The position numbers were made by a program, and so were the translations under genes. From contig JAILEL010000123.1 in assembly GCA_024687845.1 (NCBI GenBank), positions 1 to 38,767 of the forward strand: DNA of 38,767 nucleotides, written 5' to 3'. This document shows, piece by piece, positions 1 to 34,231 of this stretch (the first letter of the stretch is position 1; the number at the start of each line of letters is the position of its first letter). The notes under the pieces are model-generated. The model had not been told where the DNA came from and ran no database searches. It saw nothing but the letters and a program-made list of their open reading frames with translations. Origin of the DNA: Eubacterium sp. (GTDB lineage: Bacteria; Bacillota_A; Clostridia; Lachnospirales; Lachnospiraceae).

Positions 1-78
1 TGCAACTGGCTACCATAAATTACTTCTTAGGTCCTTCAGCTTTGCGTCACAAAGTTTCCAATGTTTTGCTAAATATAT
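1..78 (-). ncRNA. c-di-GMP-I (GEMM-I) riboswitch, 3' end cut by window edge
   Basis: Read on the minus strand, the segment shows the conserved blocks of the class I cyclic-di-GMP riboswitch in order: a GAAA tetraloop inside GGAAAC (plus positions 54-59), ACGCAAAG (40-47), GGACCTAA (27-34) and TGGTAGCCAGTTGCA (1-15). The tetraloop hairpin P1b is formed by ACA...TGT with two U-U mismatches. The last bases of the closing stem and the controlled gene lie beyond position 1, so whether it acts as an ON or OFF switch cannot be seen. An extended -10 box lies about 20 bases upstream. The assignment rests on recognition of the motif and was not scored with a covariance model. Confidence 0.78.
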
Positions 79-98
79 TATGTTTCAAATCTTTTAAT

Positions 99-12431: not shown

Positions 12432-13100
12432 TTAATTTACAACCTTTACCATAGCATGTCTAAGTACATTATTCTTAAACATGTAACCTTTTTGCATTTC
12501 TTCAGAAACAAGGTTTTCACCTTGATTTTCGTCTTCTTCATGAATAACTGCATCATGATAATTAGGATCAAATTCTTTACCAACAGCGTTCATCGGCTTA
12601 ACACCTATATCCTCAAGTGTATCCATAAGCTGTTTATAAATCTTTTCTACACCTTCTTCAAAAGGTCCCTTTTCTTCTTCACCAACACTGTCCAGAGCAC
12701 GTTCCAGATTGTCAATAACTGGAAGTATCTTTTTCAAAGCTTCCATAGCTCCTCTGTCTCCCATTTCAAGACTTTCTTTTTCGTTACGAGCTCTCATATT
12801 ATCGAATTCGGCAAGAAGTCTGGTGTATTTCTCCTTATTACCCTCTGCAAGTTCCTTTGCTTTCTCAAGCTCAGCCTGAACTGATTTGCTTCCCCTGCGG
12901 TTCTGCTTTGGAACCGGCTTAGGTTTAGCCTCGTTCGGATCAATCTCTGGTCCGATGATTATCTCTTCAGCAATATTTACAGCTGTTCCGGGAATTTCTT
13001 CGCCCTCATGAAGTGTAACTTTCTGTTCAGCCGGTAAGCTTTCACCCTCTTTTTCTTCTTTGAGGTTTCTAAGCTTATCGCTCATGTTTCTTTTCGCCAT
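12432..13100 (-). CDS. grpE: Nucleotide exchange factor GrpE
   Basis: Dimeric factor that releases ADP from DnaK. The 222 residues start with a charged, disordered stretch (1-70), followed by the long helix expected to form a coiled coil (about 72-115), the family block FDNMRARNEKE, and the C-terminal beta wing with NAVGKEFDPNYHDAV. The ATG overlaps the hrcA stop as TAATG, so the two are probably translationally coupled; AAAGGGGTGAAG lies just upstream within the end of hrcA. The disordered N-terminus is longer than in many homologues but its composition is usual. Confidence 0.96.
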   Translation of the reverse strand: MAKRNMSDKLRNLKEEKEGESLPAEQKVTLHEGEEIPGTAVNIAEEIIIGPEIDPNEAKPKPVPKQNRRGSKSVQAELEKAKELAEGNKEKYTRLLAEFDNMRARNEKESLEMGDRGAMEALKKILPVIDNLERALDSVGEEEKGPFEEGVEKIYKQLMDTLEDIGVKPMNAVGKEFDPNYHDAVIHEEDENQGENLVSEEMQKGYMFKNNVLRHAMVKVVN

Positions 13101-14167
13101 TAGTCTTCACCCCTTTGGTTTTCTTTATTTCGGAATATTGTATCCAACTCATCCGTCAGGGTTTTCAAGGTACTGACAACCTTTTTGTAATCCATACGTT
13201 TCGGTCCTATAATACCTATTGTTCCCTTTGCTCCCTCAGGAAGCTGGTAAGTCGAAGTAATGATAGAACAATCTTTCATGTTCTGAACAGGAGCTTCGTC
13301 GCCAATATAAATCTGAATATTATTTTCATCATCTTCAGACTTAAGTGTTTTGTCTGCCAGTTCATTCAGACCTGTCTGCTCCTCAAACGTTTCAAGCAGT
13401 GCTGTTGCCTTGGTAACATCTCCAAGTTCCTGAAACTTCAGGATGTTTGAAGCACCACTCGTATAAATCTTCATTTCCTCGGCTTCCTTAACAGCATCGA
13501 CTATGCCTTCAAAGATATGCTCAAGAATATCTGCATATTCTCCAGCCTGCTTCTTCATAGTCTGCATAAGCTCAAGATTAATCTGTTCTACTGATATTCC
13601 CTGAAGAAATGTATTCAGAAGAATATTAAACTTAAGTACTTCTTCATTAGACAGAGGTCTTGATACTTTAATGAGCTGATTCTTTGCTATATTATCTCCG
13701 ACAACTATTACAGCAACCAGCTCTTCTTCATCCACCTGTGACAACTGGATAAACTTAACCTGTTTATTTCTAAGCTGAGGTGTGGTAACCATCGTTGCAT
13801 ATTGTGTATTATATGCAAGAACCTTGGCAACCTGCATCAGCAGAGCTTCCAGTTTGTCAACCCTCTCCAACAGGGCACCTTCACTGCGTTTGGTTTCTTC
13901 CTTTTCAGACATAACCTTATCTACATAAAATCTGTAGCCCTTATCTGTAGGAATACGTCCAGCAGAGGTATGTGGCTGTACGATATATCCAAGCTCTTCC
14001 AAATCAGCCATCTCATTTCTTATTGTAGCAGAACTGAGATTCAGATCAGACAGTTTAGATATAGTTCGTGATCCAACCGGTTCACCCGTTTCGAGGTAAT
14101 TGGAAATGATAACTCTGAGGATGGTCTGTTTTCTGGCATCAAGATCGTATTCAAAATCCTGTCCCAT
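13100..14167 (-). CDS. hrcA: Heat-shock repressor HrcA
   Basis: Winged-helix repressor that binds CIRCE operators and needs GroEL for activity. The 355-residue product has the N-terminal helix-turn-helix (ARKQTILRVIISNYLETGEP, then VGSRTISK and SSATIRNEMADLEELGYI), the PHTSAGRIPTDKGYRFYV signature of HrcA, and the GAF-like and C-terminal domains ending with PKRMDYKKVV. The ATG at 14167 is preferred: AAAGGATGGTGAT lies upstream, closely matching the 16S rRNA complement, whereas a GTG at 14206 lies inside the CIRCE operator and cannot be a normal start. It is first in the dnaK operon and should repress its own promoter and that of htpG, which also carries CIRCE. Confidence 0.97.
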   Translation of the reverse strand: MGQDFEYDLDARKQTILRVIISNYLETGEPVGSRTISKLSDLNLSSATIRNEMADLEELGYIVQPHTSAGRIPTDKGYRFYVDKVMSEKEETKRSEGALLERVDKLEALLMQVAKVLAYNTQYATMVTTPQLRNKQVKFIQLSQVDEEELVAVIVVGDNIAKNQLIKVSRPLSNEEVLKFNILLNTFLQGISVEQINLELMQTMKKQAGEYADILEHIFEGIVDAVKEAEEMKIYTSGASNILKFQELGDVTKATALLETFEEQTGLNELADKTLKSEDDENNIQIYIGDEAPVQNMKDCSIITSTYQLPEGAKGTIGIIGPKRMDYKKVVSTLKTLTDELDTIFRNKENQRGED

Positions 14168-14199
14168 TTGATCACCATCCTTTATTAAATTTTTATTTG

Positions 14200-14226
14200 T
14201 TAGCACTCAAATATTCCGAGTGCTAA
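14200..14226 (-). promoter_or_regulatory. CIRCE operator of the hrcA operon
   Basis: A perfect TTAGCACTC-N9-GAGTGCTAA inverted repeat, matching the HrcA-binding CIRCE consensus at all 18 arm positions. It lies 32 bp before the hrcA start codon and just downstream of the predicted transcription start, in the usual place for repression. It would also form a hairpin in the 5' end of the mRNA. Confidence 0.97.
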
Positions 14227-14286: not shown

Positions 14287-14365
14287 GTTACTATTCACGG
14301 TTTATGAGATTGGTAACAAAAATGACTGCTTGCAGGCACTTTTGGAGTCAACCGTAAATAGTAAC
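14287..14365. repeat. Short MITE-like repeat, doubling as hemW terminator
   Basis: A 79-bp element bounded by 16-base inverted ends, GTTACTATTCACGGTT at 14287 and AACCGTAAATAGTAAC ending at 14365 (one mismatch). It is an internally deleted, inverted copy of the long element at 33893-34231: the first ~54 bases match the long copy's right end and the last ~28 match its left end. On the minus strand the folded ends are followed by a run of nine T residues, 33 bp after the hemW stop, so it probably works as the hemW terminator. No transposase is encoded. Confidence 0.85.
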
Positions 14366-33678: not shown

Positions 33679-33750
<72 letters not shown>

Positions 33751-33892: not shown

Positions 33893-34231
33893 GTTACTAT
33901 TCACGGTTAACTCCAAAAACACTCTTAAGTCCACATCGCATAAAGCTTATTCTTATGCAAGCATAAATAAGCTTATATGTGATGTTCTATTGCTGCTTAC
34001 GCAGCACTGAATCGTGTTTTTTGAGTTCCTGCTTGTGCCATATCACTACGTGATATGCAAGGATTGCATGGCAATCCTTGGTTCTGTTATGCAGAACGCA
34101 TCCTCACTTCGTTCGGACCATCGATTACTATGTAATCGACGGCTAAATCGCAGGTATTATGAGATAAGTAAACAAAAAGCGCCTGCAAGCAGTCATTTTT
34201 GTTACTTATCTCATAAACCGTGAATAGTAAC
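33893..34231. repeat. Long MITE-like element packed with hairpins
   Basis: A 339-bp non-coding element with perfect 16-base inverted ends, GTTACTATTCACGGTT (33893-33908) and AACCGTGAATAGTAAC (34216-34231). Inside is a row of perfect hairpins: a compound one at 33932-33981; TGCTGC/GCAGCA (33991-34006); CATATCAC/GTGATATG (34039-34057); a 10-bp stem at 34058-34080; GTTCTG/CAGAAC (34081-34097); TCGATTAC/GTAATCGA (34121-34139). It carries no transposase and no convincing reading frame. The copy at 14287-14365 is its shortened relative. It fills most of the 517 bp between the tRNA and the next gene, ending 22 bp before that gene's ribosome site. No clear target duplication is visible. Confidence 0.85.

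Follow-up and report, generated by a model that had tools for sequence, protein, structure and literature searches.

The window, i.e., the whole stretch of 38,767 nucleotides that was analysed (Eubacterium sp., contig JAILEL010000123.1), carries at positions 33893-34231 a segment of 339 bp bounded by perfect 16-bp inverted ends, which extend to 19 nt at 95%. It contains a second inverted repeat (34157-34177 and 34196-34216; 21 nt, 90%), and in its predicted fold we read about eight hairpins between the ends, with nearly no spare sequence. These are a 19-bp stem-loop, GCTGC/GCAGC, CATATCAC(TAC)GTGATATG and CAAGGATTGC(ATG)GCAATCCTTG, followed by GTTCTG/CAGAAC, a weak TCC/GGA, CGATTAC(TAT)GTAATCG and a long 3' hairpin. 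Folded as RNA, the 339 bases reach -138.2 kcal/mol against -72.1 +/- 5.0 for 100 shuffles (z -13.2), and folded as DNA they reach -85.9 (z -12.1); in both cases, 0 of 100 shuffles did as well. This confirms the original prediction of perfect 16-base ends around a dense row of hairpins.

A tRNA gene (33679-33750, minus strand) lies about 140 bp from the segment, and a nearby sulfatase gene has 13 relatives with best-segment identities of 53-73%. Their titles name Lachnospiraceae, Eubacterium or Clostridiales, and several come from the rumen, so the window has the look of DNA of a rumen Lachnospiraceae. At the start of the window, a c-di-GMP-I riboswitch (1-80, minus strand) is truncated by the window end. 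The end motif occurs five times in the window at up to 3 mismatches, for 0.24 expected; this repetition, together with the copies found in related genomes, rules out a single-copy curiosity. A second, internally deleted copy (Table 1) shares its intergenic gap with an inverted repeat at 14199-14225, TTAGCACTC..GAGTGCTAA, located near the start of a run of minus-strand genes (13100-14206 onward), which we take to be a CIRCE/HrcA operator.

A compound of two nested elements

The segment is not one element but a compound, in which an element B of 114 bp is lodged inside an element A, of 225 bp without B and with ends GTTACTATTCACGG. When related genomes were searched by blastn with the 339 bases, matches were found in 39 of 146. 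Many of these copies run from position 1 to 142 and continue without a gap at 256-339, which corresponds to A without its middle, while positions ~142-255 are found by themselves elsewhere in relatives and correspond to B. The insertion point, CCTGCTT^CGCAGG, is the loop of a small hairpin of A. B occupies the same loop in the same orientation in three other genomes (L061, L065, where the 5' part of A is absent, and L067), and the flanks of these three loci and of the window do not align with one another, indicating unlinked sites. B also occurs in tandem (L280-L282), and in one genome, G001, a B-bearing compound is present at five sites (L275-L279) as near-identical copies, four of which start with the hairpin GGTGTCAAAAGTACCTTTTGACACC and all of which end in ..TTTTGACACTTATGTCAT. 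As for A, besides the long form there is one with a shorter core, whose P4 is a small hairpin.

Since each of the two occurs in relatives without the other, one long MITE is ruled out. The original prediction of a long MITE-like element thus stands for its anatomy (ends, multiple copies, internally deleted copies) and falls for its unity, two families being involved. Likewise, the hairpin density that it found unusual for a MITE is real, but it does not characterize a single MITE, because the inserted B supplies it.

A combines fixed ends with a branched fold, in which the ends form the outer stem P1, followed by P2, a three-way junction that is conserved, a small hairpin and a long one. B is a modular array of small hairpins, which also occurs alone, in tandem and in other elements, and is hosted here by a hairpin loop of A. 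A model of A (R3, see below) matches the window element at 33909-34041 with 110.4 bits, and the B model (R2) matches it at 34035-34144 with 112.5 bits, the window copy having belonged to the R2 training set.

Table 1. Coordinates of elements A and B and of their stems in the window.
Feature	Position	Strand	Remarks
Element A, 5' part	33893-34034	+	positions 1-142 of 339; joined directly to 256-339 in relatives
Element A, 3' part	34149-34231	+	same join seen in relatives
Element B, 114-bp small-hairpin array	34035-34148	+	in A loop CCTGCTT^CGCAGG; alone in relatives
Left terminal inverted repeat GTTACTATTCACGGTT, outer stem P1	33893-33908	+	
Right terminal inverted repeat, outer stem P1	34216-34231	-	
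Stem P2, 5' arm	33909-33922	+	partner 34014-34027
Stem P2, 3' arm	34014-34027	+	
Conserved linker/P3 strand TCTTAAGTCC of three-way junction	33923-33932	+	
Stem-loop P4, GCAAGC loop	33933-33985	+	
Hairpin P5, GCTGC-GCAGC	33992-34005	+	
Small hairpin CCTGC/GCAGG, loop holding B, 5' arm	34028-34032	+	
Small hairpin CCTGC/GCAGG, 3' arm	34150-34154	+	
Long 3' hairpin P6, tip CTGCAAGCAG	34157-34216	+	
B hairpin 1, loop C(TAC)G	34039-34057	+	
B hairpin 2	34058-34080	+	
B hairpin 3	34081-34097	+	
B weak hairpin TCCTCACTTCGTTCGGA	34101-34117	+	
B hairpin 5	34120-34139	+	
Second A copy, internally deleted, 79 bp	14287-14365	-	ends and remnant of last hairpin

Spread and inferred mobility

The original prediction suggested a search of the genome and its relatives; in the window and in related genomes, the element proved multi-copy, with the second pair of ends in the window and with matches of the A core model (R1) in 21 of 195 related genomes. 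The B model R2 has matches in 52 of these 195 genomes, and the wider A model R3, built on 81 copies, in 35 of 395. The R1 search gives up to at least 15 A copies in a genome, the per-genome counts of R1, R2 and R3 all being lower bounds, as at most 17, 19 and 8 candidates per genome were scored, respectively. A is short, non-coding, dispersed and multi-copy, with terminal inverted repeats, which are general features of bacterial MITEs (for a review, see PMC10969869). It differs from MITEs in general in that its whole body keeps its pairing, that copies are fixed at their sites and that no parent transposase was found in the three families searched.

Among 40 end pairs, which include overlapping pairs from tandem copies, two perfect 8-bp target duplications were observed for 0.084 expected (maximum of 2 in 1000 shuffles); one more pair has 7/8, and most have none, good ends included. 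Near-identical copies of the G001 compound at different sites also speak for mobility. From these sequences, the 8-bp duplications being weak evidence, we infer that A and B spread by transposition, the transposase being probably supplied in trans.

No transposase of the three families searched, a point that the original prediction had proposed to check, lies between A ends (12 genomes searched for PF01609, 16 for PF01797 and 16 for PF03050), and the genome with at least 15 A copies (G055) has no match in any of them. Reciprocally, R2 and R3 matched none of 32 transposase loci, a set that comprises 22 Y1 loci and all of the 7 PF01609 loci but L297. One of the Y1 loci, L352, has a partial gene where the contig ends and, at a distance of about 240 bp, an exact A end with no core. 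Several other origins were considered and rejected. A DDE parent was sought among elements with GTTACTATTCACGGGTTAACCG ends (G031, G041 and G015), where ORF lists inspected by eye at some loci showed no transposase between the ends; at L150, an ORF resembling an IS630-type transposase is present at a distance of about 4 kb. A 1397-bp end pair at L134 encloses an ORF that is, by eye, not a transposase. Finally, a phage or plasmid origin was set aside, as the element gave no blastn match in phage or plasmid collections; the 16-mer end is present in six viral contigs, which by our own estimate is no more than chance, and a related 18-mer was not found in viral contigs.

Conservation of the pairing

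Across related genomes, it seems to be the fold that is preserved, the stems changing in sequence. For 17 full-length A copies, RNAalifold gives 75 pairs, 44 of which show compensatory changes. In an alignment of 80 distinct A copies (A7), which was fitted to the structure and therefore favours it, 94.7% of cells are paired against 72.3% after shuffling, both sides have changed in 47 of 48 pairs, and the covariation score is 0.459 against 0.149 for shuffles and 0.029-0.065 for slid structures; all measures lie above all 500 shuffles and all slid structures. The B alignment (22 copies) was made with MAFFT, not fitted to structure, and has 97.6% of cells paired against 86.2% shuffled, both sides changed in 16 of 32 pairs and a covariation score of 0.306 against 0.090; for further pair types, the level was matched by 3 of 500 shuffles. 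The compensatory changes that the original prediction had asked to look for are thus very strong. Decay of the stems without compensation, or a single-copy and non-conserved region, would have been the opposite of what is observed in these multi-copy elements with conserved pairing.

Such compensation bears on one alternative, an ordinary MITE whose inner sequence would be irrelevant and whose structure would be inherited from a palindromic ancestor. The ends, the copy number, the internal deletions and the weak 8-bp duplications all suit it, but it is strongly disfavoured by the compensation, which extends to same-site copies, and by the outer stem of old copies, which differs in sequence yet still pairs. 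We regard it as highly improbable.

Several A copies are indeed flanked on both sides by DNA common to different genomes (on the right only for L230/L243), and they provide an in-place natural record of the turnover of long stems under a kept fold. In 12 comparisons within 8 same-site groups, where groups of three were counted pairwise so that counts are not independent, 93 pairs have both letters replaced and remain Watson-Crick, and 337 are unchanged; the other changed pairs are, on the given strand, 11 G-U, 24 A-C and 33 in other states. Among unpaired letters, 105 of 433 differ. These counts exclude L104/L204, whose flanks show that they are not one site (with them: 108 double, 13 G-U, 25 A-C, 34 other and 364 same), as well as two groups with deletions (L205/L237 and L102/L214) and a near-identical row (L236). 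For example, between L218 and L222, whose flanks are 92-94% alike, P6 has two paired double changes, and at a third spot pairing disappeared on one side and arose again close by. In six genomes, A occupies one site next to a tRNA gene; the element is present in 6 of the 7 loci that have the tRNA motif, among which L325/L328 and L235/L236 are nearly identical pairs.

Beyond point changes, whole stem arms were replaced between same-site copies such as L230 and L243. Some stems of L221 and L222 are, by eye, closer to other copies of their own genome than to their same-site partners, and point changes may thus be supplemented by gene conversion or re-insertion. Arm swaps of the L230/L243 kind are also what one would find if the fold were unselected and replication template switching copied arm onto arm, keeping dead repeats palindromic, and its prediction, as set out in PMC8794818, is that double changes come in concert, with few wobble intermediates. 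This mechanism leaves unexplained the near-invariant unpaired letters of the A junction (U 0.94, C 0.90, C 1.0 and UCUA 0.92-0.97), even if the overall advantage of unpaired over paired columns in conservation is modest (entropy of 0.79 vs 0.97 bits), and it does not account for loop letters that are biased at two positions around a variable middle. We find it an unlikely explanation.

DNA or RNA

Covariation is commonly held as strong evidence of a functional RNA, while A and B combine very strong covariation with little of the G-U tolerance of an RNA control. On the given strand, A copies have 59 G-U against 70 A-C cells and B copies 24 against 19; the SRP RNA of 15 related genomes, counted in the same way, has 23 against 0. 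On the complementary strand, A has 70 G-U against 59 A-C over all copies, and 24 against 11 between same-site copies, which is a lean to RNA there. The counts cover the first 92 of 105 A matches, the first 84 of 113 B matches and 15 of the 18 SRP RNAs listed; the A rows left out are 12 antisense echoes and one weak sense match (L132), and the B rows are antisense echoes and some weak sense matches of ~22-44 bits. Columns where G-U is the commonest pair were excluded, hence 24 and not 94 for B and 23 and not 89 for the SRP RNA. Equal G-U and A-C counts are weaker evidence than they appear, because mismatches in dead copies decay symmetrically.

The loops are the second line of evidence. In stems of at least 6 bp, 41 of 44 A triloops are TNC, 40 of them closed by C-G, and so are 144 of 228 B triloops (131 C-G-closed), for 6 of 117 in the flanking DNA background; B has a further 47 TNT triloops closed by C-G. 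The middle letter varies and the outer two are mostly fixed, the counts being not independent since loops are inherited among related copies. On the complementary strand, which folds at least equally well in 16 of 17 A copies, TNC reads as GNA. The complementary strand of A also has a G(CUUG)C loop, which is a stable RNA tetraloop as well. ViennaRNA gave an identical energy for all 11 triloops tried, so that the stability of GNA rests on the literature, GNA minihairpins being described in PMC4686876 as extraordinarily stable as DNA.

The complementary strand of A is also where the known RNA Clostridiales-1 (RF01699; Weinberg et al. 2010) comes in. Read on this strand, A appears to share with it an outer stem, a long hairpin with a GCUUGC tip and a GAG..GCGGA hairpin motif with a GNA-type triloop, in a similar stem order; the model aligns end to end, with many unmatched pairs in mid-alignment. 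It matches several A relatives (L323 42.7, L321 42.1, L125 42.1, L324 37.9 and L061 37.7 bits); by cmscan, 4 of 13 A-bearing loci match in one set and 1 of 9 loci (L061) in a second, whose five other A loci have none. A match of 43.8 bits at L068 (2813-2946, minus strand) lies in a tRNA-dense stretch, away from the two B copies of that locus. The gathering score of 48 bits is not reached (37.7-43.8), and the window element gives no match up to E 1. Since the scores are below threshold and only some A relatives match, A is possibly a remote relative of Clostridiales-1 and not a member. The statement of the original prediction that no named family has these ends holds insofar as searches of an open-access library gave none, with the reservation of these sub-threshold matches. 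The table passage on Clostridiales-1 in PMC2864571 is silent on terminal repeats, mobility, nesting and strand-symmetric pairing.

A could be a true structured RNA, a Clostridiales-1 relative made from the complementary strand (in UTRs or as a small RNA) and incidentally mobile. Besides the Clostridiales-1 matches, the near-invariant junction letters and the same-site wobble counts, this would agree with a UC/UC internal loop that reads, from the sequence, as tandem GA on the complementary strand, and with the flanking genes, which by simple ORF calls run with this strand about 2:1 (32 vs 16; 24 vs 14 with orthologs counted once), as suits a transcript. However, most A loci submitted to cmscan, as well as the window element, lack a Clostridiales-1 match, the matches obtained are all below the gathering score, the all-copy wobble count is far from that of the SRP RNA, and the opposite orientation is seen at 16 of 48 tandem sites, or at 14 of 38 when orthologs count once. 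We hold this reading to be possible, if rather doubtful.

Of the two options left by the original prediction, DNA cruciforms or a folded RNA, the wobble and loop tests lean to DNA without settling the matter, and the pairing is, on these comparisons, most plausibly kept at the DNA level. That A and B are nested, MITE-like, long-resident palindromic families with hairpins preserved as DNA has in our view about an even chance of being right. The complementary strand would then fold as single-stranded DNA or as a cruciform, and the hairpins would be maintained by selection, helped by template-switch repair; as a mere guess, the fold might serve the handling of single-stranded DNA in replication or transposition. 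More tentatively, there may be a large class of intergenic elements in bacteria, perhaps including Clostridiales-1, conserved as folded single-stranded DNA and not as RNA, with purely Watson-Crick hairpins and with hyperstable d(C-GNA-G) and d(G-CTTG-C) loops on one strand, whose members would be site-fixed, nest and swap arms. If the DNA reading is true, DNA elements may have been catalogued among the candidate RNAs, and counting wobble against A-C pairs together with a loop census would be a cheap general test.

Hairpins are important as single-stranded DNA in IS200/IS605 and REP/RAYT systems. The left-end hairpin of the G001 compound resembles a stretch beside a Y1-transposase gene (31-bp match, 93.5%); unlike in REP/RAYT, no linked Y1 transposase was found for A and B, R2 and R3 being without match in the 22 Y1 loci. 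A and B also recall the Bacillus cereus repeats bcr1-bcr18, which passages of PMC3446304 describe as short, dispersed and intergenic, bcr1-3 being MITE-like and bcr10 and bcr18 having a conserved secondary structure. The host group is different, the likeness is one of description and not of sequence comparison, and those passages do not take up nesting or the question of DNA versus RNA.

Two further arrangements were seen in related genomes. At L125 (G037), the short A core is repeated four times head-to-tail, and three of these copies stop early at a similar point. Another family, with ends near GTTACTRTTCACGGGTTA, is found at L127, L166, L168 and L171 in G031, G043 and G030, and related ends occur in G041 and G015.
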